Assembly: GCF_900129725.1 (NCBI RefSeq)
Contig: NZ_FQWQ01000002.1
Span: 1,178,001-1,242,000, forward strand
Length of the DNA stretch: 64,000 nucleotides
Origin: Chryseolinea serpens
Lineage (GTDB): Bacteria; Bacteroidota; Bacteroidia; Cytophagales; Cyclobacteriaceae
Reading direction: 5' to 3'
Part shown: positions 14,640 through 61,540 of the stretch, piece after piece
Layout of the letters: each line of letters opens with the position of its first letter
How positions within the stretch are numbered: position 1 is the first letter of the stretch
Program-made: the position numbers and the translations under genes
Notes under the pieces: generated by a model
The model's database searches: none
What the model was told of the DNA's origin: nothing
The model's input: only the letters and a program-made list of their open reading frames with translations

Positions 14640-14685
14640 GTCTTTGTGTTTTATCGAACGTCAATTGATTTAGGATGGTCAGTAT

Positions 14686-17046
14686 CTATTGTTCCTTCAG
14701 ACACCGGATAGGATTGACCCGGGCCGCTTTGAAGGCCTGCACACTCACGGTAAGCCAGGCGATACACAAGGCGATGAGACCCGCCACCACAAAGTACCAC
14801 CACTCCAATGGCGTTTTGTACGCAAACGCTTCCAGCCAATAGTGTGACAGGAAATAACTCAGCGGCAACGCCACCAGGATGGCGATCAGCACTGTTTTGG
14901 TAAAGTCACCCGACAACAGGAACACGATCCGAAACACACTTGAGCCTAAAACCTTGCGAATGCCAATCTCTTTCAACCGGCGTTCGGCCGTGAACGACAC
15001 CAAACCGAAAAGCCCGAGGCACGAAATGAGCACCGCCAACCCGGCAAAGTAGCGCGACAAAACAGCCACCCGTTGCTCGGCCGCATAGAGGGCTTGTTGA
15101 TTCTGATCCAGAAAACTGTACTCGAAAATAAAACCTGGATTGACCTTGTGAAATGTGTTTTCAATGTGCTTTATCGTTTCCTGCTGGGGCCCCTGCGCCA
15201 GCTTGATCACGATGTGCCAGGTGTTGCCCGGATACATTCTCAAAAACAAAGGCTTCACCTTTTGGTGCAGCGACTCGAAATTAAAATCTTTTACCACGCC
15301 AATGATCTCCATGTTATCCCCCCATAATTTTACCACCTTTCCAACCGGATCCTCCAAGCCCATAAACCGAATGGCCGCTTCGTTGAAAATGATCCGCGCG
15401 GTGTCGGTGTAATCCTTCGAAAAGGTCCGGCCTTCTTTCATCTCAATGCCCATCGTTTCCATCAAGTCGTGGTTAACGGTCATGTTCTCGAATTCTGTTC
15501 TGTCGTTCAAATCTTTTCCAGGCCACTCTACACCGGAAGTGCCACTGTTGTGTCCCATGAGATTGTGCCCCAAGCTCGATGCATTTGCCACACCGGGTAT
15601 CGCTTTTATTTCCGTCAGAAAAGTTTCCAGTGAAGCATCGGTCCAAATGTTCCCTTCGCGGCGCACGAAGATGACATTCTCCTTGTTGTAGCCAAGATCG
15701 CGTGATTGCACGAACTCGATTTGTTTGTATACCACCACCACCGAAACAATAAAGATGATGGAGATCACAAACTGGAAGATCACCAGTCCTTTCCGCGCCC
15801 ATTGTTCACCCCACGAAGCCGTGAACTGACCTTTCAGCACCGTGGCCGGATTGAACCCCGAAAGGTACACGGCAGGATAGCTCCCCGCCAGCAAACCCGT
15901 GAAGACGGTGATGCCAATCAACTGCAGCGCCGCGACGCCATCGAGGTGAAGCGCAATGTGTTTGCCCGTGATCTCGTTGAATTTTGGCAACAACAAATCC
16001 GCGATGAGCACAGCCAGCACCAACGAGAGCAAGCTCATGAATAACGATTCACCGAGGTATTGAAGAATAAGTGTCTTACGTCCCGCGCCAACCGCTTTTT
16101 TGATACCCACTTCTTTCATGCGCCGCGAAGCTTTGGCGGTGGATAAATTCATAAAATTGATAGCGGCAATAACAAGGATAAAGGCGGCAATGATGGAGAA
16201 CAATTTCACATACGTGATCCGGCCACCCACTTCAACACCATTCTCATAATTGCCATGGAGGTAGTTTCTCGAAAAGAGTTTCAGGAACGGCGTGCGATAG
16301 CCATCCTCGTCTTTTGTTTTGACCTTGATATAACTGGCAAACTTTGCATTGAAGGCCTCCACGTCCGCACCCGGCTTGAGCAACACAAAGGCATAGGTTC
16401 CGGTGTTACCCCAATTCAGGAGCCACTCTTTTCCGTCTTTGAACTTTTCGAAGGTGCCTAAAAAATCCAATTGCATCGACGATTGCTGTGGCACTTTCTT
16501 AAACACACCCGAAATCACATACGAATCATGATGATCGTATTCAACGGTCCGACCCACTACATTATCGGTGGTGTTGAAAAGCTTTAGGGCCAATTCGTCG
16601 CTGATCACCAGGGAGCTCTTGTCGAGCAGGACCTGGTTGATGTCGCCCTGCAGCAAGGAGAAGGAGAACATCTTAAAAAAATCCTTTCCCACAAAGCGGC
16701 CCTCCGCTTTCATGTTTTTGTCGCCGATGGTAAATGTAGCGTCCTGCTCTGAAGACACGTTCATGGCGTATTCCACTTCCGGCATTTCTCCCGACAGTGT
16801 TTCACCCAAAAGACCGGACGTCGTGTAGGCTGTCCAAATGCCGCTTGATCTTACGCGGTTTTCGACCACCTGGTACAACCGGTCTCTTTTTTCATGAAAC
16901 TGGTCGACCTGCCATTCATCGTTTACCCAAAAATAGATGAGCAACGAGCACGCCAGGCCAGCAGAAAGTCCGGCCAGGTTGATAAAAAAAGTCGTTTTGA
17001 AACGAAGAAAATTGCGGAAGAGTAAAAGGATGCTATGTTTTATCAT
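14686..17046 (-). CDS. FtsX-like ABC transporter permease, array member 3
   Basis: 786 residues with the double MacB/FtsX layout. It has STAKASRRMKEVGIKKAVGAGR in the first permease half and RRLKEIGIRKVLGSSVFRIV in the second. By eye it is very close to the 786-residue permease at 17123-19483 along its whole length, with the same total length, pointing to a tandem duplication. The first extracytoplasmic domain is the most variable part. No ATPase is encoded nearby. It is in the putative operon driven from upstream of 21927. Confidence 0.9.
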   Translation of the reverse strand: MIKHSILLLFRNFLRFKTTFFINLAGLSAGLACSLLIYFWVNDEWQVDQFHEKRDRLYQVVENRVRSSGIWTAYTTSGLLGETLSGEMPEVEYAMNVSSEQDATFTIGDKNMKAEGRFVGKDFFKMFSFSLLQGDINQVLLDKSSLVISDELALKLFNTTDNVVGRTVEYDHHDSYVISGVFKKVPQQSSMQLDFLGTFEKFKDGKEWLLNWGNTGTYAFVLLKPGADVEAFNAKFASYIKVKTKDEDGYRTPFLKLFSRNYLHGNYENGVEVGGRITYVKLFSIIAAFILVIAAINFMNLSTAKASRRMKEVGIKKAVGAGRKTLILQYLGESLFMSLLSLVLAVLIADLLLPKFNEITGKHIALHLDGVAALQLIGITVFTGLLAGSYPAVYLSGFNPATVLKGQFTASWGEQWARKGLVIFQFVISIIFIVSVVVVYKQIEFVQSRDLGYNKENVIFVRREGNIWTDASLETFLTEIKAIPGVANASSLGHNLMGHNSGTSGVEWPGKDLNDRTEFENMTVNHDLMETMGIEMKEGRTFSKDYTDTARIIFNEAAIRFMGLEDPVGKVVKLWGDNMEIIGVVKDFNFESLHQKVKPLFLRMYPGNTWHIVIKLAQGPQQETIKHIENTFHKVNPGFIFEYSFLDQNQQALYAAEQRVAVLSRYFAGLAVLISCLGLFGLVSFTAERRLKEIGIRKVLGSSVFRIVFLLSGDFTKTVLIAILVALPLSYFLSHYWLEAFAYKTPLEWWYFVVAGLIALCIAWLTVSVQAFKAARVNPIRCLKEQ

Positions 17047-17122
17047 GATGAGATTCGTTTGCTCGAATTTTTTAATGAATGTTCTGTTTCTGGATGCTCA
17101 TTGAATCCCGGGACCCCGGGCA

Positions 17123-19483
17123 TTATTGCTCCTTTAAACATTTGACGGGATTGATCCGCGCCGCTTTAAAGGCTTGCAGGCTTACCGTGAGCCAGGCAAT
17201 ACACAAAGCGATGAGGCCTGCGGCGACGAAGTACCACCACTCCAAAGGTGTCTTGTACGCAAAGCCTTCCAGCCAGCGGTGCGACAAGAAATAGCTCAAC
17301 GGCAAGGCCAGGAGAATAGCGATCACCACCGTTTTCGTGAAATCGCCCGACAACAGGAGCACAATACGAAACACGCCTGATCCCAAGACTTTCCGGATAC
17401 CGATCTCCTTCAGCCGGCGCTCGGCCGTGAACGACACCAAACCGAAAAGACCCAGACACGAGATGAGGATCGCCAAACCGGCAAAATAGCGCGACAAAAC
17501 AGCAACGCGCTGCTCGGCCGCATAGAGCGATTGTTGATTCTGATCCAAAAAACTGTATTCAAAAATAAAACCGGGATTTACTTTGCGAAAAGTCTCTTCA
17601 ATGCGCTGTATCGTTTCGTGTTGATGTTCCTGGGCCAACTTGATCACGATGTGCCATGTATTGCCGGGATACATCCGCAAAAACAACGGCTTGACGGTTT
17701 CATGCAACGATTCAAAGTTAAAATCTTTTGCTACGCCAATGATCTCCATATTACTGCCCCACACCTTCACCACTTTTCCAACCGGATCCTCTATTCCCAT
17801 AAAACGGATAGCCGCCTCGTTGAAAATGATTCGTGCGGTGTCGGTCAAATCTTTTGAGAACGCGCGACCCGCTTTCATTTCGAAACCCAGCGTTTCCATC
17901 AGCCCGCCGTTAACGGTCATGACCTCGAATGCTGTTTTATCGCTTGGATTTTTTCCGGGCCATTCTACGCCGGTGGTACCGCTGTTGCGGCCAGTGAGGC
18001 CGTGCCCCAAGCTTGATGCGTTCACGACGCCGGGAATCGCCTTTATCTCCGTCAGAAAGGTTTCCAATGAAGCATCGGTCCAAATGTTCCCTTCGCGAGG
18101 TACGAAAATGACATTCTCCTTATGGTAGCCGAGATCGCGTGATTGCACGAATTCGATTTGTTTATATACGACCACAACCGAGACAATAAAAATGATGGAG
18201 ATCGTAAACTGGAAGATCACCAGCCCCTTCCGCGCCCATTGCTCGCCCAACGACGTGCTGAATTGGCCCTTCAGCACCGTGGCCGGGTCGAAACCTGATA
18301 GATACACCGCGGGGTAACTCCCCGCCAGCAAACCCGTAACGGCCGTGATGCCAAGCAACTGCAGCGCGGCGATCGCATCGAGATGAAGCGCAATATGCTT
18401 GCCGGTGATCTCGTTGAACTTTGGCAGTATCAAATCCGCTGCGAGGATGGCCAGCACCAGGGCGAGCAAACTCATAAATAAAGATTCGCCAAGGTATTGA
18501 ACCATGAGTGTTTTGCGTCCCGCGCCAACAGCCTTTTTAATGCCCACCTCCTTCATACGTCGCGAAGCTTTGGCCGTCGACAAGTTCATGAAGTTGATCG
18601 CGGCAATGACGAGAATAAAAGCGGCGATGATGGAAAACAGTTTCACGTAGGTGATTCTTCCTCCGGTTTCAACGCCGTTCTCATAGTGGCCGTGGAGATA
18701 ATCCCTCGCAAAAAGTTTCAGGAACGGCATGCGGTGAGCGTCTTCTCCATTTGTTTTGGTCTTGATGTAACTGGCAAACTTGGCGTTGAAGGCCGCGACG
18801 TCCGCATTCGGTTTGAGTAACACATACGCCAGGGTTGCCGTATTGCCCCAATCCTGAAACCACTGCTTTCCATCTTTATATTTTTCGAGCGTTCCTAAGA
18901 AATCGACTTGGATCGTGGATTGTTGCGGCATTTTTTTAAACACCCCCGAGATCACATAGGCATCATGGTGATCGTATTCAACGGTCCGACCCACCACATT
19001 ATCGGTTGTATTAAAAAGTCTTAAGGCTAGTTCGTCGCTGATGACCAGCGCATTCTTATCGAGCAGCACTTTGTTGACATCGCCCTGCAGGATGGAAAAA
19101 GAAAACATCTTAAAAAAATCCTTTCCCACAAAACGGCCTTGCGCTTTCATGTTCTTGTCGCCAAGGGTGAGCGTAGCGGCTTGGTCGGACGATGTGCTTA
19201 TGGCATATTCCACCTCGGGCATTTCGCCCGACAGCGTTTCACCCAAAAGACCCGAGGTGACGTAGGATGTCCAAATGCCGCTGGACCGTACCCGATTTTC
19301 CAGTACTTGATACAGCCGGTCCTTTTTCTCATGAAACTGGTCGATCTGCAATTCGTCATTCACCCAAAAATAAATGAGCAGCGAGCACGCCAGGCCCGCA
19401 GAAAGCCCGACCAGGTTGATGAAAAAAGTCGTTTTGAACCGGCGAAAATTGCGGAAGAGCAAAAGGATATTGTGTTTTATCAT
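17123..19483 (-). CDS. FtsX-like ABC transporter permease, array member 2
   Basis: 786 residues with the same domain plan and motifs as its neighbour at 14686-17046 (FMNLSTAKASRRMKEVGIKK, ERRLKEIGIRKVLGSGVF). A second, weaker sigma-54-type promoter candidate lies just upstream at 19511-19525. That could let this gene and those behind it be transcribed apart from the first permease. The role is as for the other array members: the membrane part of a tripartite or mechanotransmission-type ABC system, with the ATPase elsewhere (inference). Confidence 0.9.
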   Translation of the reverse strand: MIKHNILLLFRNFRRFKTTFFINLVGLSAGLACSLLIYFWVNDELQIDQFHEKKDRLYQVLENRVRSSGIWTSYVTSGLLGETLSGEMPEVEYAISTSSDQAATLTLGDKNMKAQGRFVGKDFFKMFSFSILQGDVNKVLLDKNALVISDELALRLFNTTDNVVGRTVEYDHHDAYVISGVFKKMPQQSTIQVDFLGTLEKYKDGKQWFQDWGNTATLAYVLLKPNADVAAFNAKFASYIKTKTNGEDAHRMPFLKLFARDYLHGHYENGVETGGRITYVKLFSIIAAFILVIAAINFMNLSTAKASRRMKEVGIKKAVGAGRKTLMVQYLGESLFMSLLALVLAILAADLILPKFNEITGKHIALHLDAIAALQLLGITAVTGLLAGSYPAVYLSGFDPATVLKGQFSTSLGEQWARKGLVIFQFTISIIFIVSVVVVYKQIEFVQSRDLGYHKENVIFVPREGNIWTDASLETFLTEIKAIPGVVNASSLGHGLTGRNSGTTGVEWPGKNPSDKTAFEVMTVNGGLMETLGFEMKAGRAFSKDLTDTARIIFNEAAIRFMGIEDPVGKVVKVWGSNMEIIGVAKDFNFESLHETVKPLFLRMYPGNTWHIVIKLAQEHQHETIQRIEETFRKVNPGFIFEYSFLDQNQQSLYAAEQRVAVLSRYFAGLAILISCLGLFGLVSFTAERRLKEIGIRKVLGSGVFRIVLLLSGDFTKTVVIAILLALPLSYFLSHRWLEGFAYKTPLEWWYFVAAGLIALCIAWLTVSLQAFKAARINPVKCLKEQ

Positions 19484-19510
19484 GACGAATGGGTCTGATT
19501 GAATTTGTTA

Positions 19511-19525
19511 GCAACTACTTGACCA
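19511..19525 (-). promoter_or_regulatory. Possible sigma-54 promoter upstream of permease array member 2
   Basis: Read on the minus strand, TGGTCAAGTAGTTGC has the GG-N10-GC spacing and a perfect TTGC at -12. The -24 half departs from TGGCAC at two positions. Transcription would begin about 12 bases downstream, some 16 bases before the permease start at 19483. Confidence 0.35.
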
Positions 19526-19554
19526 TGTATGCTTACTGAATTCGGGATCACTGG

Positions 19555-21927
19555 TCACTGTTCTTTCAAACATTTCGAAGGATTGATCCGCGCCGCCTTA
19601 AAGGCTTGCGTGCTTACCGTCAGCCACGCAATCAAGAGTGAAACCCCACCGGCACTGACAAAATACCAACCGGAAAGATCGATCTTGAATACAAACGTGT
19701 CGAGCCAGTAGCGCACCACAAAATAGCTTGCCGGCAATCCGATCACGATCGACACCAGCACGATCCGGGTGAAATCTTTTGTCAGCAGGTAAACGATGCC
19801 GGCTTCACTGGAGCCCAGCACCTTCCGGATGCCCATCTCTTTCAAGCGTCGCTCGGCGGTGAATGCTGCCAGTCCAAACAGACCCAGGCACGATATGATG
19901 ATGGCCAGCGCCGCGAAATAGCGCGACAAGATCGCCACGCGTTTTTCCGCTACGTATTGGGCCTGGTAATCCTGGTCGAGGAATTTATAATCGAACGTGA
20001 AGCCGGGATTGAAGGTCGTGTAGAACCGGCCGAGGCGTTCCAAGGTTTCTTTTGTTTTGCCGCCCTCGATCTTCACCATAACATGCAGGGTTTCGTCGGG
20101 AACGTACCGAAAGAAGAGCGGTTTCACATTTTCGTGTAATGACTGAAAGTGAAAGTTCTTGACCACACCGATGATCTGCATTTTTTTGCCCCACATTGTG
20201 ATCTCTTTTCCCACGGGGTCTTTCAGTCCCATCACGTCGATGGCCGCCTCGTTGAAAATGATCTTCGATCGCTCATCGCCAAATTGGCTGGAGAACGTGC
20301 GTCCGGCAAGCATCTCCACACCCAAGGTCTCCACCATTTGATAGTTGACGCCGACGTTTTCAAAGGGTATAATGTCTGCAGGATTCTTTCCATCCCATTC
20401 CATCCCGGTCGTGCTGTTTTCAGCCCTCACCATCGCGTGGGCGCTGCTGGATGCGTTGACCACGCCAGGCATCTGTCTCACTTCGGTCAGGAAAGTTTCA
20501 AGGCTTTCGCCAACTTTTCCACTGGGTTTAAAGTAGATGATGTTGTCTTTATCGAACCCGATGTTTTTAGTTTGAACGTACTCGATCTGCTTGTAGATGA
20601 CCATCACCGAAACAATGAAGACGATGGACAGCGCAAATTGAAACACCACCAATCCCTTCCGCGCCCAGAATTCATTGGCGGAGTTAACGAACTGGCCCTT
20701 CAATACCAGTGCCGGGTTGAATCCTGAAAGATAGAAGGCTGGATAGCTGCCCGCCAGCAGGCCTGTAGCCGTGGCGATCCCAACCAAAGCCAGCACGAAA
20801 CGACCGGTAAAGTTCAGCGTCAATTGCTTGCCGGTTACGTCATTGAACAAGGGAAGCAAAAGGTCGACCACCAACACGGCGACGGCCAGGGATAAGAAGG
20901 CCATCAACAGTGACTCCACGAGGTGTTGTGCCATCAATGTCCGTCTTCCCGCGCCGATCGCTTTTTTGATACCCACTTCCTTCATGCGTGTCGTGGCCTT
21001 TGCAGTCGACAGGTTCATAAAGTTGATGCAGGCTATGATGAGAATGAAAATTGCAATAAGAGAAAACAACCGGACGTACTCGATTCTGCCGCCCGCCTGC
21101 ACGCCGTTCTCGTAGTGCCCATACAGGTATCGCTCGGAGTAGCGCTGCAAAAATAAGGTCACGTGCGAAGTCGGGTCTTTTCGTTTTATAAAATCCGCGA
21201 TCTTCGCGTCAACATCGGCTGGGCGCACGCCCTCCTTCAATACCGCATAGGTGTTCGTGCCAAAATTTCCATACGTCAAGGCCTCCTTGCCCACGATCTC
21301 CTTATACACTTCGAACGACAAAGCGAAATCGAACCGGTCGGAAGCGGTGGTGGGCAGCTCTTTATAGACACCGGTGATCACAAATTGTTTCTTGATGTTC
21401 AACACCTCCCAATCCACCACCTTACCTACAACATGGTCGGTCGTGTTGAAAAATTTCTTTGCCAGCGTTTCTGAAATGACGATCGAACCTTTGTCGGTCA
21501 AAACGTTGGCAGGATCGCCCTGCAGAAAAGTATAAGAGAATACTTTGAAATAATCTTCGCTGATCAACTGCCCCACGGCGCTCACGTGCTTGGCGTCCGC
21601 CGAAACCGAAAACTCATAGGGCTCATTGAAGGCGACCGAGGTGGCCACATTTTCAAATTCCGGAACCTCTGCGATCAATGCCTCGCGCAGGATGGCCGGT
21701 GTGGAGGGGGAAGTGTCGATGCCCTCGGTCAATTTTTTATAGGTCATCACCGAAAAGAGACGCGCATCGTTTTTGTGAAATGTATCGACGGTCAGCTCAT
21801 CGTTCACCCAAAGAAAGATCAACACCGCGCAAGTCAACCCGGTCGACAATCCGATGAGATTGATCAAAAATGTGCTCTTGAACCGTTTAAAATTCCGAAA
21901 GACGAGGAGTAAGTGGTGTAGGATCAT
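19555..21927 (-). CDS. FtsX-like ABC transporter permease, array member 1 (promoter-proximal)
   Basis: 790 residues and two FtsX halves (FMNLSTAKATTRMKEVGIKK and RRLKEMGIRKVLGSSEAGIV). It is more divergent from the 786-residue pair than they are from each other. It is the first gene of the minus-strand array. A strong sigma-54-type promoter lies 45-59 bases upstream, and the sigma-54 activator gene starts divergently 223 bases away, so this is the likeliest direct target of that regulator. Confidence 0.9.
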   Translation of the reverse strand: MILHHLLLVFRNFKRFKSTFLINLIGLSTGLTCAVLIFLWVNDELTVDTFHKNDARLFSVMTYKKLTEGIDTSPSTPAILREALIAEVPEFENVATSVAFNEPYEFSVSADAKHVSAVGQLISEDYFKVFSYTFLQGDPANVLTDKGSIVISETLAKKFFNTTDHVVGKVVDWEVLNIKKQFVITGVYKELPTTASDRFDFALSFEVYKEIVGKEALTYGNFGTNTYAVLKEGVRPADVDAKIADFIKRKDPTSHVTLFLQRYSERYLYGHYENGVQAGGRIEYVRLFSLIAIFILIIACINFMNLSTAKATTRMKEVGIKKAIGAGRRTLMAQHLVESLLMAFLSLAVAVLVVDLLLPLFNDVTGKQLTLNFTGRFVLALVGIATATGLLAGSYPAFYLSGFNPALVLKGQFVNSANEFWARKGLVVFQFALSIVFIVSVMVIYKQIEYVQTKNIGFDKDNIIYFKPSGKVGESLETFLTEVRQMPGVVNASSSAHAMVRAENSTTGMEWDGKNPADIIPFENVGVNYQMVETLGVEMLAGRTFSSQFGDERSKIIFNEAAIDVMGLKDPVGKEITMWGKKMQIIGVVKNFHFQSLHENVKPLFFRYVPDETLHVMVKIEGGKTKETLERLGRFYTTFNPGFTFDYKFLDQDYQAQYVAEKRVAILSRYFAALAIIISCLGLFGLAAFTAERRLKEMGIRKVLGSSEAGIVYLLTKDFTRIVLVSIVIGLPASYFVVRYWLDTFVFKIDLSGWYFVSAGGVSLLIAWLTVSTQAFKAARINPSKCLKEQ

Positions 21928-24871: not shown

Positions 24872-25312
24872 TTAAACGACTCGCTCCCAGGTTACCGTAA
24901 ACACCGTTTCGCCGGTTTGGGTTGGGACGGGCGGTGTGCTCACCTGCAACACGTTGCCCGTGAGCACCGCATAGCGCAGTTGCTCCATCCCTATCCAATT
25001 CGGAAATAGACTTCCTTCCACAAAGTGAATGATTTCGCCCGGGGCGCGTTCGTAATACTTTCCAAAGTACGCCAGGTAACTGTGAAATGCATGCTTCGAT
25101 TCCTCCGCCGTGCCACTATTAATGGAGTCAGAGGCAAAGGGCACACGGCCGGCTTTCATCAATTGGGCGTTCATGTTGCCCGCGATGTCGTACATTAAAA
25201 TGCCCGTGGCCTCTTTCCCGAAGTAATCGATCAACTCGTTCTTTTCATTCACATAGGTCCACGACACCAGTTTCCAGGTACCCACTACCTTATCTTTTAC
25301 AGATTCTTTCAT
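24872..25312 (-). CDS. Lipocalin-like domain protein encoded behind the PKS
   Basis: 146 residues from the ATG at 25312, just 4 bases after the PKS stop; an in-frame longer start would overlap the PKS. The sequence KVVGTWKLVSWTY opens a lipocalin-like barrel (PF13924-type), with GILMYDIAGNMNAQLMKAGR and GEIIHFVEGSLFPNWIG as later strands. There is no signal peptide, so it is probably cytoplasmic. Tight coupling to the PKS suggests a role on the polyketide, such as binding, cyclisation or release. That is inference; the family itself has no single known activity. Confidence 0.75.
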   Translation of the reverse strand: MKESVKDKVVGTWKLVSWTYVNEKNELIDYFGKEATGILMYDIAGNMNAQLMKAGRVPFASDSINSGTAEESKHAFHSYLAYFGKYYERAPGEIIHFVEGSLFPNWIGMEQLRYAVLTGNVLQVSTPPVPTQTGETVFTVTWERVV

Positions 25313-25316
25313 GGCA

Positions 25317-28300
25317 TTAAGAAGGTTGGTTAACAGACAACACAGCTTCTTCATCGCCAATGGAATCCAGGATCGTGGCCGTCACAAACACCGCCTCATG
25401 TTCGATGTAGCGGTGCCCGCCGGGGCGTGAAACCAATTGGAAAGATTTTGTGGTCTCGTTCTGCCACTGCTCCACCTGGTGACGGGTGACGCGTGCGTCG
25501 TCTTCGCCATGGAACCCGACAATAGAAACCGGGAGGGGCTCTTCTGCGGTATATTGATAATTATTCAATAATTCCAGGTCGGCGCGCAAGATGCGCATGA
25601 GGATCTGTTGAAGTTCGGCGTCCTTGCTGTTTTCGATGGATACGTGAGGGAACATCGCGGCCAGGTCTGCGTCGGAAAGTTGGTGATCCACTTGCCCTTT
25701 GTCATAGGAGAACAGGCTTGGGGTGGACGACACGAACAGCTTGTCCGGCAAGGCCTTGTTCAGGCGGCGCAGGGAACGGATCACTTCGAAGGCGATGAGG
25801 CCTCCCATGCTGTGACCAAAGAACGAGAACGGTTTGTCCATTTTGGTAAGCAGCACGGGCATCATGTCTTTCAGCAGATCTTCCAGTTTTCGATACGGTT
25901 GCTCGGCCCAACGCATGCCGCGGCCGGGAAGCTCTATCAATACCACCTCCACGCCATCGCCCAGTCGGTTTTCCCAATCGTGATAGAGCGAAGCATTTCC
26001 GCCGGCGTCGTGAAAACAGAAGAGTCGGCGTATAGCCTTATCGTTCACGCGGGTGGTGACGAACCAACGATTGTCCACCGTGGCCTCGGCGGCGGCGTCC
26101 TGTTGTTCCAGGGCAATGATTAGTCGCTGTTCCGCCGTTTGTGGGCGAAGGTTATCAAAAAGATAGAGCGCATATTCGCGAATGCTGGGATGCGACCAGA
26201 ACATGGCTACCGAAAGCTTCAGGTCCACACTCTTCTCCAACAGGTTTCTCAACTGAATGGCCATGAGCGAATCCACACCCAATCCTTTGAAAGTCATGGA
26301 AGCGTTGATGCGCGCCGCCGGCATCTTGATGATCTTACTGACATGGCGTGTGATGAGTTGTTCCAACGCTTCTTTGCGTTCGCCAGCGTCTGTCATGCGT
26401 CCGAAGGTTTCCAGGAAGCTGACTTCTTTTTCTGCATCGGCCGATTTATCGGTTGCCAGCAAACCCTTGAAGTAGTTCGTACGGGCCATCGTCGAGTAAT
26501 ACGAACCCATTTGCACCGCGTCAATTTTCATAATGCCGATCTGCGTGAAGTCCTGTGCGGCAATGGTATCGTATACTTCCATCGCTTCTTTCATCACGAT
26601 GGGTTCGAACCCTTCGGCGCGTGCATATTTCTCCAGCTCACTTTCATTGGCAACCATGCCCACGTCTTTGATCACGCCCCAGTTGATGCTTTGTGCCGTA
26701 AGGCCTTTTTGCTTGCGGCGATGCGCCAGCACATCCAGGAAACTGTTGGCGGCTACATAGCTGGCTTGTCCGCTCAATCCGATCAGCGATGATGCCGATG
26801 AAAACAGGACGAAACAATCCAGGCTCAGGTGTTGGGTCAGCAGGTGGAGATTCCAGGCTCCCTTCAGTTTCGGCGCCAGCGTTTCCATGAATTCAATCTC
26901 CGAGATCTTGTCGATGGACTTTGCTTCGATGACACCGGCAGCATGAATAACACCTTTCAGGGGTGGCATGGATTTTTGGATTTCTTCCAGCACATTTTGC
27001 AATTGGTCGGCATGGCTCGCGTCGGCTTGGAATGTGGTGAAGCGGCATCCTTGCGACTGGTAGGCCAAGATCTTCGTGAGAACGCTATCGGGTGCTTTAC
27101 CGGTGCGGCTCAGGAGCGCAAAGTTCCGGGCGCCACGACGGATCATCCATTCGATGAAAACAAAACCCAAGCCTCTGAAACCAGTGACGAGGTAAGTGCC
27201 CTGATCCGAATAGCGGGCTTGCAACGCCTTGGCGGCGGTGGCCGTGTTGGACAATGCCTTCAACCGCGGCGCGAACTGCACCCGGCCACGCAAAGTGATC
27301 TCGCGGTCGTTGCTGTCGGATTCCTTGATCAATTGAACAACCTGATCCAGCTCTTCCATCATCGGGTTGAAGCTGAGGTCGTAGCGTTTGGCTTCATACT
27401 GGGGCAACTCATTGCTGACCACCCGCAGCAGGCCCGACAACGCCGCGTGGACGACCTGGGGTTGATGTTTGTCGGAGCCCACCACCTGCATACCGTTGGT
27501 GACTACGGCGAGTTTCGGCGCCGACGTTTGATGCGCCATCACTTCTTGAAGGGCGTACAACACGCTGATGCTGCCGAATACTTGCTCTGCCTCCATTTCA
27601 TCCGAAGTCAGCTCCCGCTCGCTGGAAGGGTAGTAGATTCCGCCCATGTGCAACACGCCATCCAAAACCGGCACATGGTGCGCCAGGTCTTTGGCCAATC
27701 GCGCATAACCGTCTTTATCCGCATAGTCGAGTTTATATTGCAGCAAGCCCGATCCATCTTCCACCCTGCCAAATTCGCGGTCGGGGGTGACGTGGATAAA
27801 CCGGATGCCGGCGGCTTCCATTTTCTCCAGGAGAATGCAACTCAGTCCGTAGACATCGCCGAACAAAAGCCACGTCTGCATTTCCGGTTTGGTGTTTTTC
27901 TTTTCCACAGCGCGCTCGCTCCACTCGACGTCATACAACCAGCTCTTGATCTTTTCGCTTTCGCGGCGGATGAGGTCGGCGTCCAGGATCTTGCCTTGTA
28001 AGCCTGAAACTTTCAACACCACGTTGTCGTGGCTGCCGAAGATGATGAGATCGGCTTTCACCGTGATCGTGCCGCGTTCGCTGTCGGTGCGCGCCGGGTA
28101 GAGCCGGGCTTCTCCGCGAACGGGTTGGGAGTAATCTATTTGTCCAAGGAGTTGCACTTCGTCTACCGAGGTGAGGAACGTGGTCCGGTCGGAAGAGGCA
28201 TCGGGTTGTTGTGCGATGGTGAGGAACAGCGGCTGGAAACAGGCGTCGAGCAAGGCCGGGTGCAGCGCATAGCGGCTCGCATTCTGACGAATGCTTTCTT

Positions 28301-31300
28301 CGGGCTGTACTTCAAACGACACGTAGGTATTGGCACCCCGGCGTTCCATCGACAAGGTTTGAAGTCCCTGAAAATGTTTTCCATACTGCAAGCCAAGACC
28401 TTGCAGCGACCGATAGTATTCTTTTGTATCGACGGAAGAAACCGTCGTTGAGGTCGTGTTGATAAAACGATCCGTATGGATGAGTGAGCCGGTGTACATG
28501 GTGAGCACACCTTCCGCCAGCAATGTCCATCCCGACTTATCGTCCGCACTGCCGCGGGCGAAGAATTTAAAGTCATTGCGACCGTTCTCGTTTTCCACCA
28601 TGCGCAACTGGACGCGCTTGAGTTCACCCTCCACCAGGTTGATGGATTGAATGAAATTGAGCTTCCGGATGATCGGCACGCCAGCCCCGTGAATTTCAAG
28701 GGCGGCTTCGAGGATGATCTCCACGTAGCCGGCGCCTGGAAATACAGGCGTAGCGTTTACCTGGTGATCGGCGAGATAGGGATATTTACCGAGACCGATC
28801 TGCGATTCCCAATACCGCACTTCGTCCAGCCCGGCGAGTGTGATCGATTGGCCCAACAACGGGAAACGCAGGCCGGTGTTTTTGTCGCGTTGCTCGGCTG
28901 AGCGATCTTCCAGCGCATAGGTCTCCCGTTGAAACGGGTATGCCGGAAGGGAAACGATGGGCGCCTTGGCGATACCGTAAAAATCTTTCCAGCACACATC
29001 GAACCCTTTGGCATAAAGATCACCCAGATTTTTAAGAAGCGATTCCTGTTCCGGTTTTTCGCGGAAAAGCGAGGGCACTGTGATGACCTTCATTTTTCCA
29101 GCTTCTGCACATTCGTTGACGGCGTTGGTCAGCACCGGGTGCGGACTCACTTCGATGAACACGACGTGCTGGCGGTCCATCAATTGTTGCATGATCGTAG
29201 AGAACTGCACGGTGTTCCGGAGATTGCTCACCCAATATTCCGCATTCATCTCTCTTCCTTCCATTTGTCGTGCCTGCACGGTAGAGTACAGGGCGATCCC
29301 GCCTTCGCGTGGCGTGATGCCTTGTAGTGCCACGCGAAGCTCTTCCTTCAACGGATCCATTTGCTGACTATGGGAGGCCACATCAACCTTTACCAACCGA
29401 CCGAAGAGACCTTTGCTTTCCAATTCCTGCAAGAGTTGATCGATGGCTTGTTTATCTCCAGCCACCACGGTGGACTTGGGGCTGTTCGATACGGCGACCG
29501 ACAGACCCGGGTAGCGCTGGATCATTTCCGTGGCAGCGTTTTGATCCAGTTCGGTCACCGCCATGGCACCGCCCTGGCCGCTGACGCGCTTCATTAATTT
29601 ACTGCGGGTGCAAATGATGTTGGCGGCATCTTCCAGGCTGATGGTCCCCGCGATGTGCGCGGCCGCCACTTCCCCCATGCTGTGACCAACCACAGCCTGC
29701 GGGCGAACACCCCAAGCCATCCACAATTTGGCCAGGGCAATTTGAATCGCGCAGATGGCGGGTTGGATCACGTTGATCTCATTCCAGCGACCGTTGTTGT
29801 CTGTCGATTGAAGTTGCTCCAGCAACGACCAGTCGGTGTAAGGACGATAGGCCTTGTCGCAGGCTTCGATCGCCTGGCGGAACACCGTTTCCTTTTGCAT
29901 CAGTTCCCTGCCCATGCCAAGCCATTGTGAACCCTGACCCGGAAATACAAAGACCACCTTCTCGCGCGCCGACAGCGGTGCCGCGGGAGTCAACTCCTGG
30001 TCATCTTTCAAAAATTCTTCCAGGCTGCTCAACACCGCTTCTTTGCTGGTGCCCGTGTGCAGGACGCGGAAGTCGAAGCCCGGCTTCAGCAACGCCGTAG
30101 CCACGGAAAGATTGGCGAACGCCTCTTCGTTGCCCGCCTGGATGCGATCGGCATATTCTTTTGCGTATAACTTCAATGCTTTTTGCGAGCGGGCCGACAG
30201 CGGCAGCGCATAACGGTTGGTGACCCGATGCGTGGGCACGGACTGCACCACGATGGGCCTGTATTCTTCGATGACCGTGTGCGCGTTTGTGCCACCCCAG
30301 CCGAAGGAGTTGATGCCGGCTCTCAGTTTTTCACCGTTGCTGGTCGGCCATTGACCCAGTTCGTTTTGCACTTGAATTTTCAATTCTTCAAATGCGATGG
30401 CCGGGTTGGGATTCTTAAAGTTCAGACTTGGGGGGAGCATTTTATGCCGGATCGCGAGCACCACTTTGATCAGGCCTGCCATGCCGGCGGCGGCTTCCAG
30501 GTGACCGATGTTTGTTTTCACAGAACCTACGCGAAGTTTGGTCGTGCGACGCTGGCCGAAAAATTCTCCCAAGGCGCGCGTCTCTGTGGGATCACCCAAT
30601 TTGGTTCCCGTGCCGTGGGCTTCTACATAATGTACGTCTTCGGGTGCAATGCCCGAGCCCGCATAGGCTTCGCGCAACACTTGCTTCTGGCCTTCAATGC
30701 TGGTGGCGGGCAGGTTTACGTTGTAGCCGTTGTTGTTCATGGCCGAACCTTTGATGACGGCATAGATGGTATCGCCGTCGCGCTCGGCGTCTGAGAGTCG
30801 TTTCAGAAACAGCACGCCGGCACCTTCGCCGCGCACAAAGCCATCGGCGGCTTCATCGAAGGTGCTGCACTTTCCTTTTTTGGAGAGCCCTCCGAACTTG
30901 GCGAGCAAAACGTTTTGGTCGGGGTCGAGGATATGGTTGATGCCGGCGGCAAACGACATCTCCGTGCTGCCGTCCCACAAACTTTGACAGGCCAGGTGGA
31001 GTGCTACCAGCGACGAAGAGCAACCCGTGTCCATCACCAGGCTGGGACCCGTGAAGCCGAAGGCAAACGAGACGCGGTTGGCAATAATATTCGACGATTG
31101 GCCCACGGCCGAATGTGAGGTGACCGGGGCATTCTTGTGTTTACGCAAATGTTCGAAGTCGTTCCAGATGTTGCCGACATACACACCGACCTTCTTTCCC
31201 TGCACGGATTGGACGGGGATGGTCGAGTTCTCGACGGCTTCCCAAACCAACTCCAGCATTAGCTTTTGGGAAGGGTTCATCTCCGCGGCCTCCGCTGGCG

Positions 31301-31574
31301 AGATGTTGAAGAACAGCGGGTCGAAGTCATGGATGTTTTCCAGCATGGACGCATGGCGTTGGTGTGACTTGCCCTGGGCGAGTGGATCGGAGTCGTAGTA
31401 GTCATCGTTGTTCCACCGCGACTTTGGTATTTCTGTGATGGTATCCCTACCTTCGCTGAGCAGTTTCCAAAAAGCTTGCAGGGTCTCGGCGTGGGGGAAA
31501 CGGCACGACATGCCGACGATGGCGATGGGTTCTTTCATAACAGAGGATGGTTGGTTGTGATGAGATGTCTTCAT
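25317..31574 (-). CDS. Type I polyketide synthase, single module KS-AT-DH-KR-ACP-TE
   Basis: 2085 residues from the ATG at 31574; starts at 31661 or 31538 are also possible, the last placing the KS at once. Domains: KS 13-440 with Cys185 (DTGCSSS, usually DTACSSS), His320 (EAHGTGT) and His358 (NIGHLEAA). AT about 540-840 with Ser632 (GHSMGE) and VASHS at 732-736. DH about 903-1190 with His937 and Asp1110 (HPALLDACFQ). A structural plus catalytic KR about 1210-1675 with TGFRGLG and Tyr1606 (GQASYVAANS). ACP with Ser1769 (GVDSLMA). TE with Ser1922 (GHSMGG) and His2054 (GGHRY). There is no ER. A lone module that carries its own TE suggests iterative use. A divergent PPTase gene and a coupled lipocalin-like gene flank it. 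Confidence 0.93.
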   Translation of the reverse strand: MKTSHHNQPSSVMKEPIAIVGMSCRFPHAETLQAFWKLLSEGRDTITEIPKSRWNNDDYYDSDPLAQGKSHQRHASMLENIHDFDPLFFNISPAEAAEMNPSQKLMLELVWEAVENSTIPVQSVQGKKVGVYVGNIWNDFEHLRKHKNAPVTSHSAVGQSSNIIANRVSFAFGFTGPSLVMDTGCSSSLVALHLACQSLWDGSTEMSFAAGINHILDPDQNVLLAKFGGLSKKGKCSTFDEAADGFVRGEGAGVLFLKRLSDAERDGDTIYAVIKGSAMNNNGYNVNLPATSIEGQKQVLREAYAGSGIAPEDVHYVEAHGTGTKLGDPTETRALGEFFGQRRTTKLRVGSVKTNIGHLEAAAGMAGLIKVVLAIRHKMLPPSLNFKNPNPAIAFEELKIQVQNELGQWPTSNGEKLRAGINSFGWGGTNAHTVIEEYRPIVVQSVPTHRVTNRYALPLSARSQKALKLYAKEYADRIQAGNEEAFANLSVATALLKPGFDFRVLHTGTSKEAVLSSLEEFLKDDQELTPAAPLSAREKVVFVFPGQGSQWLGMGRELMQKETVFRQAIEACDKAYRPYTDWSLLEQLQSTDNNGRWNEINVIQPAICAIQIALAKLWMAWGVRPQAVVGHSMGEVAAAHIAGTISLEDAANIICTRSKLMKRVSGQGGAMAVTELDQNAATEMIQRYPGLSVAVSNSPKSTVVAGDKQAIDQLLQELESKGLFGRLVKVDVASHSQQMDPLKEELRVALQGITPREGGIALYSTVQARQMEGREMNAEYWVSNLRNTVQFSTIMQQLMDRQHVVFIEVSPHPVLTNAVNECAEAGKMKVITVPSLFREKPEQESLLKNLGDLYAKGFDVCWKDFYGIAKAPIVSLPAYPFQRETYALEDRSAEQRDKNTGLRFPLLGQSITLAGLDEVRYWESQIGLGKYPYLADHQVNATPVFPGAGYVEIILEAALEIHGAGVPIIRKLNFIQSINLVEGELKRVQLRMVENENGRNDFKFFARGSADDKSGWTLLAEGVLTMYTGSLIHTDRFINTTSTTVSSVDTKEYYRSLQGLGLQYGKHFQGLQTLSMERRGANTYVSFEVQPEESIRQNASRYALHPALLDACFQPLFLTIAQQPDASSDRTTFLTSVDEVQLLGQIDYSQPVRGEARLYPARTDSERGTITVKADLIIFGSHDNVVLKVSGLQGKILDADLIRRESEKIKSWLYDVEWSERAVEKKNTKPEMQTWLLFGDVYGLSCILLEKMEAAGIRFIHVTPDREFGRVEDGSGLLQYKLDYADKDGYARLAKDLAHHVPVLDGVLHMGGIYYPSSERELTSDEMEAEQVFGSISVLYALQEVMAHQTSAPKLAVVTNGMQVVGSDKHQPQVVHAALSGLLRVVSNELPQYEAKRYDLSFNPMMEELDQVVQLIKESDSNDREITLRGRVQFAPRLKALSNTATAAKALQARYSDQGTYLVTGFRGLGFVFIEWMIRRGARNFALLSRTGKAPDSVLTKILAYQSQGCRFTTFQADASHADQLQNVLEEIQKSMPPLKGVIHAAGVIEAKSIDKISEIEFMETLAPKLKGAWNLHLLTQHLSLDCFVLFSSASSLIGLSGQASYVAANSFLDVLAHRRKQKGLTAQSINWGVIKDVGMVANESELEKYARAEGFEPIVMKEAMEVYDTIAAQDFTQIGIMKIDAVQMGSYYSTMARTNYFKGLLATDKSADAEKEVSFLETFGRMTDAGERKEALEQLITRHVSKIIKMPAARINASMTFKGLGVDSLMAIQLRNLLEKSVDLKLSVAMFWSHPSIREYALYLFDNLRPQTAEQRLIIALEQQDAAAEATVDNRWFVTTRVNDKAIRRLFCFHDAGGNASLYHDWENRLGDGVEVVLIELPGRGMRWAEQPYRKLEDLLKDMMPVLLTKMDKPFSFFGHSMGGLIAFEVIRSLRRLNKALPDKLFVSSTPSLFSYDKGQVDHQLSDADLAAMFPHVSIENSKDAELQQILMRILRADLELLNNYQYTAEEPLPVSIVGFHGEDDARVTRHQVEQWQNETTKSFQLVSRPGGHRYIEHEAVFVTATILDSIGDEEAVLSVNQPS

Positions 31575-31776
31575 AAAAAATCTTGCTATCGTGAAATAAT
31601 AATCGAATGTACCATGAAGTATTCCTGCATACTTTTGAACAACCCTTGAAACATTACCCAAAAACCTTTTTCGAAAATTGCGCGCAATCCAAGTATTTTT
31701 TTCTGTGTACTCCCCGGAATCAGGGGTGCATCAATGACCATCCCAAACCATTGCAGAACACCACTCACTACGCGAT

Positions 31777-32415
31777 ATGATCACCGGCGCATGTTATGAC
31801 AAAAGAGACTTTTCAGAAATGCCAGGCCTTCAAACGCTTAAAAAGAAAATCGCGCCCGTGTTGTTGCCCACTACGAAATACGTGTTTGAAGGTGAGTTAC
31901 TTAACAGTCTGATCGGACGATGGCTGCTGCAGTGTCTCCTGCAAAAAAAACAAGTTTCGCTTCAAAAGTTACACCTCACTTCCGATCATCAGGGTAAACC
32001 CCGTCTCTCGTTGCCGTTGGATTTTTCTATCACGCATTCGTTCGACTTGGTGATCTGTCTGGTTTCGGATGAGGGTCCTGTGGGCGTTGATGTTGAAAAG
32101 ATCCGCGATGTTCCGCTGGAGGAATATCAATCAAGCTTCACCGAGAGCGAGTGGTCCTTCCTTATGAAAGCTCCCAACACGATCGAATCTTTCTTTTCCT
32201 TGTGGACAAAGAAAGAAAGCTTGCTTAAGATGCATGGGCTCGGGTTGCAAGTTCCGTTGACGAACGTGCAGGTGCTGGATGCAGTCGGTATTATTACGGG
32301 TATGACTTCCGTTTATACCGGGGTGTGGTGTCCTTATTCTATCAGAGACTACAGTTGTAACATAGCCGTTCCTGAAAATGCGTCGCGCGTTCAGATGGAA
32401 GTTGTGGAGTTTTGA
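31777..32415 (+). CDS. Sfp-type 4'-phosphopantetheinyl transferase
   Basis: 212 residues. It moves phosphopantetheine from coenzyme A to the ACP serine, turning apo-PKS into the active form. Family motifs are GVDVEKI (metal-binding Asp105 and Glu107), FTESEW near residue 121 and WTKKESLLKMHGLGL (Trp143, Glu147, Lys151). It stands divergent from the PKS across about 200 bases, so it is the obvious dedicated activator. The N-terminal part is short compared with Sfp itself, but the catalytic core is intact. An alternative start is the Met at residue 15. Confidence 0.9.
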   Translation: MITGACYDKRDFSEMPGLQTLKKKIAPVLLPTTKYVFEGELLNSLIGRWLLQCLLQKKQVSLQKLHLTSDHQGKPRLSLPLDFSITHSFDLVICLVSDEGPVGVDVEKIRDVPLEEYQSSFTESEWSFLMKAPNTIESFFSLWTKKESLLKMHGLGLQVPLTNVQVLDAVGIITGMTSVYTGVWCPYSIRDYSCNIAVPENASRVQMEVVEF

Positions 32416-32568: not shown

Positions 32569-32955
32569 ATGCAGTCATTATCCAAACAGAAGAATCTCGA
32601 AATCAGTTACGACCCCGAACACAAGTATCTCTACTGTAACTGGCTTGGATTCCAGAACAAGGAGTCAATCATGAAGTCCGGTCTCATTATCCTTGACTTG
32701 CTGAAGCAAAAGAAAGTGAGCAAGGTATTGAACGACAATTCACAAGTGACCGGGCCTTGGCAAGAAGCAGCCGAGTGGACGGCTACGGTGTGGTTCCCGC
32801 AAATGATCGAGCATGGTCTCAACCACTTTGCGTGGATCTTTTCTCCCAACATCTTTTCTGAACTATCGGCCAAGAAGGCGATGCCTTCCTCCGGTATCGT
32901 AAAATCTTTTAACTCGTATACTGACGCGTTGAGCTGGTTGATCTTGCAGAAGTGA
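32569..32955 (+). CDS. Hypothetical protein (STAS/SpoIIAA-like fold suspected)
   Basis: 128 residues, no named family. The pattern ISYDPEHKYLYCNWLGFQNKES, then a helix, then KVLNDNSQVTGPWQEAAEW resembles the small Bacteroidota proteins with a SpoIIAA-like alpha/beta fold, where a strand-helix repeat ends in SFNSYTDALSWL. It has no signal peptide or membrane segment. It is downstream of the PPTase on the same strand, but 153 bases away, so linkage to the PKS system is weak. Confidence 0.6.
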   Translation: MQSLSKQKNLEISYDPEHKYLYCNWLGFQNKESIMKSGLIILDLLKQKKVSKVLNDNSQVTGPWQEAAEWTATVWFPQMIEHGLNHFAWIFSPNIFSELSAKKAMPSSGIVKSFNSYTDALSWLILQK

Positions 32956-33362: not shown

Positions 33363-33643
33363 TTGGGTTTCTTTTAATTAGCGGCCGTAGTAGGGTTGGG
33401 CTTCTAATCAAAATCGGGTGTCGTCTTCACCTGTCGTTACAAACAGGTTCAAAAATTGTACCGGGTACCGGTGATTGAGTTAAGGGTCGTTCATGGTCTA
33501 GGTTATTGGGTTCAGTGGTATAGCACGCCAGCTTTATTCAACCCCCAACCCAGACCAAAAGAAAACTGATTTTCCCAAAATAGAACTAATCTTATCCAGG
33601 ATTGGGAAAACCTGCCGGCCTTAAACGCTCAGCCCGAACCCTC

Positions 33644-34213
33644 ATGCAAGACCTCTCCGAAAAGAATTTTCAGGACCTGTTCCGGCAGCATCATCGGGAA
33701 CTATGCAACATGGCCTATAACCTGGTGAACGACCCGGACGCCGCCAAAGACATCGTGCAGGAAGTTTTTGCAAAACTGTGGGCCGGCCGCGACCACCTCG
33801 ACCTGGATGGCCCCATCAAACACTATCTCTTTAAAGCCACCGCCCACACGGCCTATAATCACTTGCGGTTCCAGAAAAAGATCCTTCGCCTGCACGACCA
33901 CGTAACCGACGACACCCTCCACGCCCACCCCGGGACAGACCGCGTGGAATTCACGGAATTGGAACACCACGTCCGGCAGGCCATCGACAATCTTCCGCCC
34001 CAATGCAAAACGATCTACATGCTCAACCGCCAGGAGGGCATGAAATACCAGGAGATCGCCGACGTGCTGCGCCTTTCGCCTAAAACCGTAGAGAACCAAA
34101 TGGGCATTGCCCTGGAAAAGCTTCGCGTGGCATTGAAGCCTTTTATTACCCTGAAATCGTTTGCAGCATTGGCCCTGGTCGGTTGGGTATGCTATTATTT
34201 ATTGTCACTGTGA
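33644..34213 (+). CDS. RNA polymerase ECF sigma factor, FecI-like
   Basis: 189 residues from the ATG at 33644; a TTG start at 33602 adds 14 atypical residues. Region 2 has FQDLFRQHHRELCNMAYNLV and DIVQEVFAKLW. Region 4 has YQEIADVLRLSPKTVENQ. The end (FAALALVGWVCYYLLSL) is a hydrophobic tail, common among Bacteroidota FecI-type sigma factors. It is followed 73 bases later by a FecR-type gene, its probable membrane anti-sigma partner. Confidence 0.9.
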   Translation: MQDLSEKNFQDLFRQHHRELCNMAYNLVNDPDAAKDIVQEVFAKLWAGRDHLDLDGPIKHYLFKATAHTAYNHLRFQKKILRLHDHVTDDTLHAHPGTDRVEFTELEHHVRQAIDNLPPQCKTIYMLNRQEGMKYQEIADVLRLSPKTVENQMGIALEKLRVALKPFITLKSFAALALVGWVCYYLLSL

Positions 34214-34286
34214 TTATTTCCGGGAGCCGCTTGGGGGTTCCTGCCATGTGGCGTGCTATGAGAGAAGACGTGTAGAAAGTACAAGT

Positions 34287-35387
34287 ATGAACGACCATCA
34301 TTCCCAGGAAGCCGCCATCATCGCTTATTTGTCCAACGAGCTGGATGAGGGCGGGCGGTTGGCGCTGGAATTCTGGTTGGCGGAATCGGAAGAGCATCGC
34401 CGCATCTTCCAGGAAGCAAAGGCCCTTTGGAAAAACTCGGGCAAAAAACTTGTCCTCCATCATCCCGACACCGAGACCGAACTCGTACGTCTCCTGGAGC
34501 GCATTAAAAAAGAAGAAGCAGCCCACTCAAAAAATAGCCATGCTTTTCCCGGCCGGAGGTTGCTCTGGAGAGTTGCGGCCTGCATCCTTGTCGTCATGCT
34601 TTCGGTGTACGGTTACATCCATTTGAATCCTGCCGTTGAATTCGAACGGACAACCGGGGACCAGGTCGCCAGTTTTTATCTGCCGGACAGCAGCAGGGTT
34701 TGGTTGAATACTCATAGCCGGCTTTCCTACACCAAAGCCTTTCACGGCGAATTCCGGCGGGTGACGTTGCAAGGCGAGGGCTACTTTAAAGTGACTCCCG
34801 ATGCGAACCGCCCGTTCGAAGTGATCACCGGCGCCACCACCACGCGCGTGTTGGGCACGTCGTTCAACGTGAAGGCTGAGGATACGCTCACTACACTTTC
34901 CGTGACCGAAGGAAAAGTAAAATTTGCCGCAACCGGAGAGCCGGAAAGTGAAGTGTTGGTCACCACCCACGAACACGCCACCTTTCACACGCGACAGAAA
35001 ACCGTAACCAAAGGCGAAGTCACCGATGTGGGCTTTGCATCTTGGCGCAAAAGGAACAATCCCATCTATGAAGAAGAGGCGCGGAACATCAAGGCGTTTC
35101 TTCATCATCAGCACACGTGGAAGAAAAATCCGATCCGTCAAACCATCATCAACGGACGGATCCGGAACACGGCATCGCTGACCACGTACAAGAATGTTGT
35201 GTTGCTGGTCACCTATGGAAAATCTGCCGACGCTACACGCGTCACGCGCTTTACCATTGTCGAGCCGGTAAAACCAGGACAGGAATTGGCGTATCAGCGA
35301 CGGCTGGTAGACACGTTCACGGACACGTCATTTGTCCGCATCGTCGTGGAGTCGGCGGAATTGGTGCTGGAGGATGATGCCCGCTGA
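34287..35387 (+). CDS. FecR-type anti-sigma regulator with unusual C-terminal domain
   Basis: 366 residues from the ATG at 34287. The cytoplasmic anti-sigma part is about 1-90, a membrane segment is about 95-112 and the FecR domain about 118-235 (RTTGDQVASFYLPDSSRVWL, GEGYFKVTPDANRPFEV, VLGTSFNVKA, TEGKVKF). The typical C-terminal STN-like DUF4974 domain is missing. In its place, residues 284-360 (INGRIRNTAS, YKNVVLLVTY, VEPVKPGQELAY) resemble an FxLYD-type immunoglobulin-like domain. No TonB receptor follows, unlike standard Fec systems. Confidence 0.85.
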   Translation: MNDHHSQEAAIIAYLSNELDEGGRLALEFWLAESEEHRRIFQEAKALWKNSGKKLVLHHPDTETELVRLLERIKKEEAAHSKNSHAFPGRRLLWRVAACILVVMLSVYGYIHLNPAVEFERTTGDQVASFYLPDSSRVWLNTHSRLSYTKAFHGEFRRVTLQGEGYFKVTPDANRPFEVITGATTTRVLGTSFNVKAEDTLTTLSVTEGKVKFAATGEPESEVLVTTHEHATFHTRQKTVTKGEVTDVGFASWRKRNNPIYEEEARNIKAFLHHQHTWKKNPIRQTIINGRIRNTASLTTYKNVVLLVTYGKSADATRVTRFTIVEPVKPGQELAYQRRLVDTFTDTSFVRIVVESAELVLEDDAR

Positions 35388-60307: not shown

Positions 60308-60508
60308 CTGGGGGTGGGGCTATATCGAAAGGTAAAATACTGAATTGAAATAATTCCACATTATTTATTTTGAAATATGGCCGGAAACGATGCCTGCTGG
60401 TGCGTGCGAGCACTCCGGCGAGGTCACATCCCGGGTAAAAAACATCGCTCATTTGTCGATAAACTCGTATTTTGCGCCAACATCCCGTATTGATTTTTAC
60501 ACGGACCT

Positions 60509-61486: not shown

Positions 61487-61511
61487 CCTACGCTGAAGCT
61501 TCGGCGCAAGC
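61487..61511. repeat. Third copy of the GAAGCTTCGG-type repeat
   Basis: CCTACGCTGAAGCTTCGGCGCAAGC matches copies at 41410-41470 and lies directly after the stop of the MORN gene, before the convergent permease stop at 61541. Confidence 0.5.
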
Positions 61512-61540
61512 GTGGGTTGGCCAGAAGCAGCAACACGCTG

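Follow-up and report, generated by a model that had tools for sequence, protein, structure and literature searches.

Polyketide synthases (PKSs) like mycocerosic acid synthase (MAS) possess an enoylreductase (ER) and no thioesterase (TE), and enediyne PKSs (PKSEs) have a different domain order, a C-terminal phosphopantetheinyl transferase (PPTase) and working ketoreductase (KR) and dehydratase (DH) domains. We compared with these and other described systems a locus of four members in the soil bacterium Chryseolinea serpens (assembly GCF_900129725.1, genome of 8.36 Mb), namely a single-module type I PKS, a protein of the Lipocalin_5 family, a divergent PPTase and a gene for a small protein with a STAS fold. 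The locus lies in a stretch of 64,000 nt (contig NZ_FQWQ01000002.1, positions 1,178,001 to 1,242,000), which is called the window below. The conserved core of the system consists of ketosynthase (KS), methylmalonyl-type acyltransferase (AT), acyl carrier protein (ACP), TE and lipocalin, and the tools that act on the β-carbon are disappearing from it.

The PKS resembles MAS from the KS to the structural half of the KR (psiKR; query 44-1448), and its AT is of the same broad kind. In contrast to MAS, no ER was found (the zinc-dehydrogenase family gave no match by Pfam), a TE is present and the KR loop is shortened. The curated scores of related NCBIfam models were not reached by the PKS. An earlier note on this DNA, made from the sequence alone, had described a PKS with its own TE. 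The TE (25389..26030, aa 1878-2091; all PKS features lie on the minus strand, with amino-acid positions in the Pfam numbering of the 2114-aa PKS frame) is indeed present and fused, but its kind is that of the discrete type II thioesterases. Its nearest solved relatives are 3qmv/3qmw (which we take to be RedJ; E 5.5e-32 for 3qmw), 6vap and RifR (E 5.5e-23), and the only PKS chain among 13 matches is a DEBS-RifR fusion (9pc6). RifR and 3qmv/3qmw are discrete proteins, whereas this TE sits at the PKS C-terminus as the sole release domain. Its Ser, Asp and His are present, as is the triad in 11/11 PKSs of the first set of relatives defined below.

The enediyne pair of PKSE and DynF is like this locus in combining a lone type I PKS, iterative in the enediyne case, with a "type II" thioesterase and a small β-barrel fatty-acid-binding protein (PMC8725005, partial text). 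According to the same partial text, DynF forms a barrel of eight strands that contains palmitate, is proposed to bind the PKSE polyene, and still yielded palmitate when co-expressed with PKSE and the thioesterase (PMC8725005). We liken DynF to a lipocalin by description; the word lipocalin is not used in the available part of PMC8725005, and the absence of DynF from the 50 lipocalin fold matches listed excludes nothing. The two systems differ in that the PKS here ends in a fused, RifR-like TE and the PPTase is a separate gene. The C2-type KR3 domains of DEBS and pikromycin are like the window KR in that Tyr is kept, the NADPH motif is altered and the module is an α-methyl one, by prediction in the window (PMC11228615, PMC5331325, both in part); they belong to assembly lines, unlike the lone PKS here, and the likeness comes from sequence. 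Certain fungal Diels-Alderases are lipocalin-like and work with PKS-nonribosomal peptide synthetase (NRPS) hybrids (excerpts of PMC9701702); the fungal PKS-NRPS context is different, and we set them beside the window lipocalin by description. Among the matches listed in a literature search on the pairing, the host and the product, which covered the sources in part, there was no bacterial PKS with Lipocalin_5, and this is no proof of absence. The same matches held no assigned product for this layout, in agreement with the earlier note, and no described cluster with these genes.

The PKS-lipocalin pair in relatives

The PKS gene (25317..31574, minus strand) encodes KS-AT-DH-psiKR-KR-ACP-TE, as assigned by Pfam and by comparison with relatives, which also make ATG 31574 a more likely start than TTG 31661. 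Its KS (30417..31532, aa 44-415) has the active site DTGCSSSL, its AT (29004..29954, aa 570-886) the motifs GHSMG and VASH, and its ACP (26160..26357, aa 1769-1834) the motif GVDSL, so that KS, AT and ACP all carry the catalytic residues of a type I PKS module. The genome holds no second strong type I KS, its ten other KS matches falling in frames of 343-445 aa. The description of a self-contained lone enzyme is supported. The stop codon TAA (25319-25317) is followed after 4 nt, exactly as the earlier note had stated, by the ATG at 25312 of the 146-aa lipocalin (24872..25312, minus strand). This protein covers positions 1-142 of the 142 in the PF13924 profile (E 8.5e-32, 110.4 bits for a cut-off of 25), and its predicted model is a closed β-barrel of the lipocalin fold. 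Its residues R56, E71, H96, N105 and R113 are conserved.

In order to see how far this arrangement is kept, we collected 32 full-length single-module PKSs including that of the window, 11 in a first set and 21 in a second. Two further copies were left out, G008 (broken frame, downstream side beyond the contig) and a second copy in G131 (start beyond the contig). The search of the family gave 33 matches, of which G1024, G937 and G1001 (36-37% identity) were not counted; in both identity and extent they look like another PKS class. Members with matches below the E cut-offs used would escape the search, and one sample of 30 genomes was picked for a TE match and is not random. All 32 relatives have the lipocalin gene downstream of the PKS in the same orientation, and the pair is present in one cut copy too; the coupling proposed by the earlier note is thus conserved. 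KS (DTGC), AT and lipocalin are retained in 32/32. The median gap between the two genes is 5 nt, and it is at most 60 nt in 30 of 37 loci (the 32 relatives, the cut G131 copy, two bimodular and two cyanobacterial PKSs), with the ATG closest to the PKS stop taken as the start, which biases toward short gaps. In a KS-AT tree of 40 rows, the 32 relatives form one clade (100/100) beside the bimodular pair G103/G221.

The distribution of the pair is patchy. It was found in 3/6 genomes of the genus, in 30/295 of the family (the 33 matches minus the three of another class, with the broken G008 included), in 7/390 of the order sample and, among 395 genomes of a phylum sample, in the window genome alone. 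Two other PKS matches of the phylum sample, 36% identical, have no lipocalin in the stretches read. In G008 (L043 1-7011) a PPTase is kept beside a PKS that is split over several frames.

The AT motif VASH, which is of the methylmalonyl type, occurs in 32/32 relatives. Compared with solved structures the AT is closest to EryAII (DEBS), and MAS ranks above PpsA, PpsC and CurL; DEBS and MAS ATs accept methylmalonyl. Methylmalonyl-CoA mutase genes occur in the genome. VASH and YASH are handled as methylmalonyl-type motifs in the literature (PMC8058987, partial text).

Lipocalin_5 genes also accompany PKSs outside this group, two bimodular relatives and three from cyanobacteria. The lipocalin follows KS-AT-ACP-TE terminal modules in the bimodular G103 and G221, both with VASH, and KS-AT-cMT-ACP-TE in Brasilonema and Nostoc mirabile. 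The cyanobacterial ATs carry HAFH and their PKS genes hold a methyltransferase domain (cMT). Because of this methyltransferase domain or a terminal VASH, the lipocalin-linked PKSs examined whole are all predicted to place an α-methyl group. In four of the five PKSs outside the group, the last module gave no KR match. Within 291 genomes of the order, all 11 lipocalin matches of at least 150 bits adjoin TE-PKS genes (for one, G239 C353, the neighbour is a TE fragment where the contig stops), and the score then drops to 89 bits. A sharp score border for PKS linkage outside Cytophagales was considered and rejected, given loci without a PKS in L253 and on plasmids (see below). Viral contigs were searched for relatives of the lipocalin and none was confirmed. 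The row in Nostoc mirabile (L251 1406-9448) is a compact cyanobacterial counterpart, with an AMP-ligase-ACP gene, the KS-AT-cMT-ACP-TE gene and an overlapping Lipocalin_5 gene; a row in Nostoc favosum (L252 8250-18953) holds genes for a reducing PKS, a P450, a short-chain dehydrogenase, Lipocalin_5 and a sulfotransferase.

State of the reductive domains

The earlier note had listed KR and DH among the domains of the PKS; the comparison does not support reading them as working. The KR of the window (26667..27200, aa 1488-1665) has K, S, Y and N in place, and its NADPH loop (TGFRGLG, 27165..27185) is shortened. The loop is one residue short in all 12 KRs of the first set when the broken G008 is added to the 11 full-length PKSs. 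Among 46 KR rows with a readable loop, 13 are short, these 12 and the KR of the bimodular G103; the other 33, at least three of which are cut copies of an already counted gene, are ungapped at the loop, and the bimodular G221 is degenerate in another manner. The gap is visible against the solved DEBS KR1 as well. A KR was found in 16/21 PKSs of the second set, and the short TGxxG form is present in 14 of these 16 and lost in two. The remaining five (5/32 overall), G856 among them, gave no match to either psiKR or KR. The catalytic Tyr is lost in three (G239, G1011 and G983) of the 27 KR-bearing relatives. In the KS-AT tree, the five PKSs without KR form one nested clade (100/100) that is sister to Chryseolinea (91/95, under the strong mark of the tool), and the KRs without Tyr sit at two further places. 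With a loop one residue short, the window KR does not fit the reducing A and B types, though K-S-Y-N are present. It keeps Tyr and two glycines of the altered loop, and a KR with Tyr present and the NADPH motif absent is predicted to be of the C2 type (PMC11228615, consulted in part).

The DH (27981..28862, aa 934-1227) has its His/Asp dyad in this strain. Of the 21 PKSs in the second set, 6 have lost the His and 7 the Asp. The DH is barely better conserved than the psiKR (27312..27944, aa ~1240-1450), with identities of 33.4% and 30.5% across the first 11. The corresponding values are 52.0% and 30.4% in a control of eight one-module PKSs of another class, with KS identity near equal between the sets (71.2% against 69.2%). 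Part of the DH difference is general, since AT, KR, ACP and TE of the control are also better conserved than in this PKS family, by 8 to 17 points.

Proposed mechanism and alternatives

The reading we favour is that the locus encodes a PKS which retains the β-keto group and places an α-methyl group, with a lipocalin that binds or cyclises the product. From sequence comparison we give this reading a probability of roughly 50%. The persistence of the pair in relatives whose reducing domains are decayed or missing suggests a lipocalin that handles or closes an unreduced keto product. The stand-alone PKS would be activated by the PPTase, its own or another from the cell, and the KS would couple an acyl starter with one or more methylmalonyl units picked by the AT. 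The β-ketone would be retained, with the KR probably redox-inactive in this strain and perhaps just setting the α-methyl stereocentre in the manner of a C2-type KR; the DH may be vestigial or repurposed. The chain would then be hydrolysed by the fused type-II-like TE. The lipocalin barrel may receive the α-methyl-β-keto product or the ACP-bound chain, and either close it to a ring, e.g. a methylated pyrone, or shield it against decarboxylation. For the STAS protein, a regulatory role is conceivable, as is docking on the ACP, for which the YchM STAS-ACP complex 3ny7 offers a lead.

Several observations weigh against this reading. Besides K, S, Y and N, the window KR retains two glycines of the loop; it is under purifying selection (dN 0.017, dS 0.64 compared with G001), and KR mean identity across the first 11 is 52.8%, for 30.5% in the psiKR. 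Identity so far above that of the psiKR, together with purifying selection, indicates that the KR does something, possibly reduction even now. All 11 DHs of the first set have the dyad intact. The choice of extender by an AT is not fixed by the VASH motif alone (PMC8058987, in the part available). In Nostoc favosum, two other genes separate the Lipocalin_5 gene from the PKS upstream of it, which has an ER and whose KR loop is of full length. Lipocalin_5 proteins occur without a PKS in an Anaerolineales genome (L253, 125 bits) and without an annotated PKS in three of four plasmid loci examined (109-119 bits; 69 records matched), and the Cytophagales and cyanobacterial PKS-linked lipocalins form no single supported clade.

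Other explanations were considered. In this strain the four KR residues and the DH dyad are intact and the KR is strongly constrained, and the enzyme might, much as the earlier note had suggested, be a partially reducing iterative PKS in which the atypical-loop KR and the DH work, giving over several cycles an α-methyl polyene or enoic acid that the TE releases and the lipocalin carries. The lack of another type I PKS in the genome agrees with iteration, and a carrier role agrees with the polyene binding proposed for DynF (PMC8725005, in part). However, KR is absent or Tyr-less in 8/32 relatives, the sister clade included, the loop is short throughout, and DH conservation exceeds that of the psiKR so little, compared with the control of similar KS identity, that we regard this explanation as rather unlikely. 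We also find it unlikely, to a slightly greater degree, that the enzyme performs a single round, with its α-methyl-β-keto acid losing CO2 to give an ethyl ketone or being passed on, and with the lipocalin in a protecting or transporting role. There is one module and no loading domain was found in it, and related PKSs spread two condensations over two modules, so that each KS there need act just once; the locus, however, has no other module or obvious acceptor enzyme. The placement of the KS is uninformative on iteration, because the trees held no characterised iterative KS; the nearest outgroup KS in them is part of a two-module PKS. That the lipocalin is a co-regulated bystander outside the pathway would fit the occurrence of Lipocalin_5 elsewhere without PKS, and is made very improbable by the 32/32 linkage across strongly diverged PKSs and by the PKS neighbours of all 11 strongest matches in the order.

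Lipocalin_5 proteins could represent off-loading partners of a new class, small barrel enzymes for the cyclisation of α-methyl-β-keto (poly)ketides from TE-ended PKSs, although we consider this catalytic role doubtful. Its extension to both the methylmalonyl-type Cytophagales PKSs that shed their reductive loop and the C-methylating cyanobacterial PKSs is a similarly tentative suggestion. The pair is a minimal two-gene polyketide system with a dedicated pocket protein and is small enough to be rebuilt in E. coli. Among the relatives the KR ranges from altered through dead to deleted while the other parts are constant, a natural series that allows a direct test of what the reductive loop, and what a bacterial lipocalin, contributes to polyketide release.

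PPTase, STAS-like protein and surroundings

The PPTase gene (31777..32415, plus strand; PF01648, E 1.4e-12), which the earlier note had called dedicated, is real and divergent from the PKS, but it is facultative. It lies near the PKS in 17/32 loci (4/11 in the first set and 13/21 in the second), and the genome holds four PF01648 matches including this one; its membership of a fixed core was rejected on both grounds. Conservation of gene order thus applies to PKS and lipocalin and not to the PPTase. The proposed locus of three genes was correct for these three and overlooked a conserved STAS/SpoIIAA-like gene (32569..32955, plus strand), whose 128-aa product has a STAS fold by prediction and matches no named family among the Pfam and NCBIfam profiles. 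This gene is near the pair in 29 of 30 assessable loci (10/11 and 19/19; L279 and L287 reach a contig edge and were omitted), the only miss being L077 of G239. It stands beyond the PPTase in Chryseolinea and on the opposite strand in the five relatives without KR. Its family has one match in this genome at E 1e-5. A role exclusive to the PKS was rejected, as the family is matched in 179/390 genomes of the order, with up to at least 11 in each.

The earlier statement that there are no transporters fails for the surroundings because a gene for a MacB/FtsX-type permease (19555-21927) lies 2.9 kb away. This neighbourhood is maintained in the congeners G001 and G002, and L072 and L073 also have frames related to the permease (33-37% identity) in the vicinity of the cassette. 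We do not count the permease within the PKS system, though a link may be conceivable. Large frames, each about 786-803 aa long, stand in rows at 12228-21927 and 57896-63952 of the window, and the two frames checked (19555-21927 and 57896-60307) are MacB/FtsX-type permeases; genes for a sigma-54 regulator and a histidine kinase adjoin the first row. Near the STAS gene there is an ECF sigma factor/FecR pair (33602-35387), followed by acyltransferase and O-antigen ligase genes.

The flanks of 12 loci outside the second set were compared with part of the window, and few genes recur. One is a gene of about 675 aa that adjoins the cassette in L041, L074 and L075 (80-91% mutual identity) and whose start presumably resembles UvrB. 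MacB-like frames are shared by the window, L072 and L073, and the remaining recurrent genes are mostly common to L074 and L075.

Other PKSs were met in the loci studied. A second class of one-module PKSs, of about 2430 aa with a full-length KR loop and a TE, occurs in L044, L045, L046, L049, L050, L079 and L080; a PPTase-like gene adjoins it in 7/7, none of the seven has a lipocalin match, and Pfam finds an ER in L044, the sole one scanned. A second PKS of Chryseolinea lacunae (L048 1505-10564) carries the AT domain twice, and a separate frame close to it is thioesterase-like. In L216 (1031-6310) a large protein, kinase-like by its first residues, is divergent from a bimodular PKS, and a relative of it adjoins the PKS of G221.

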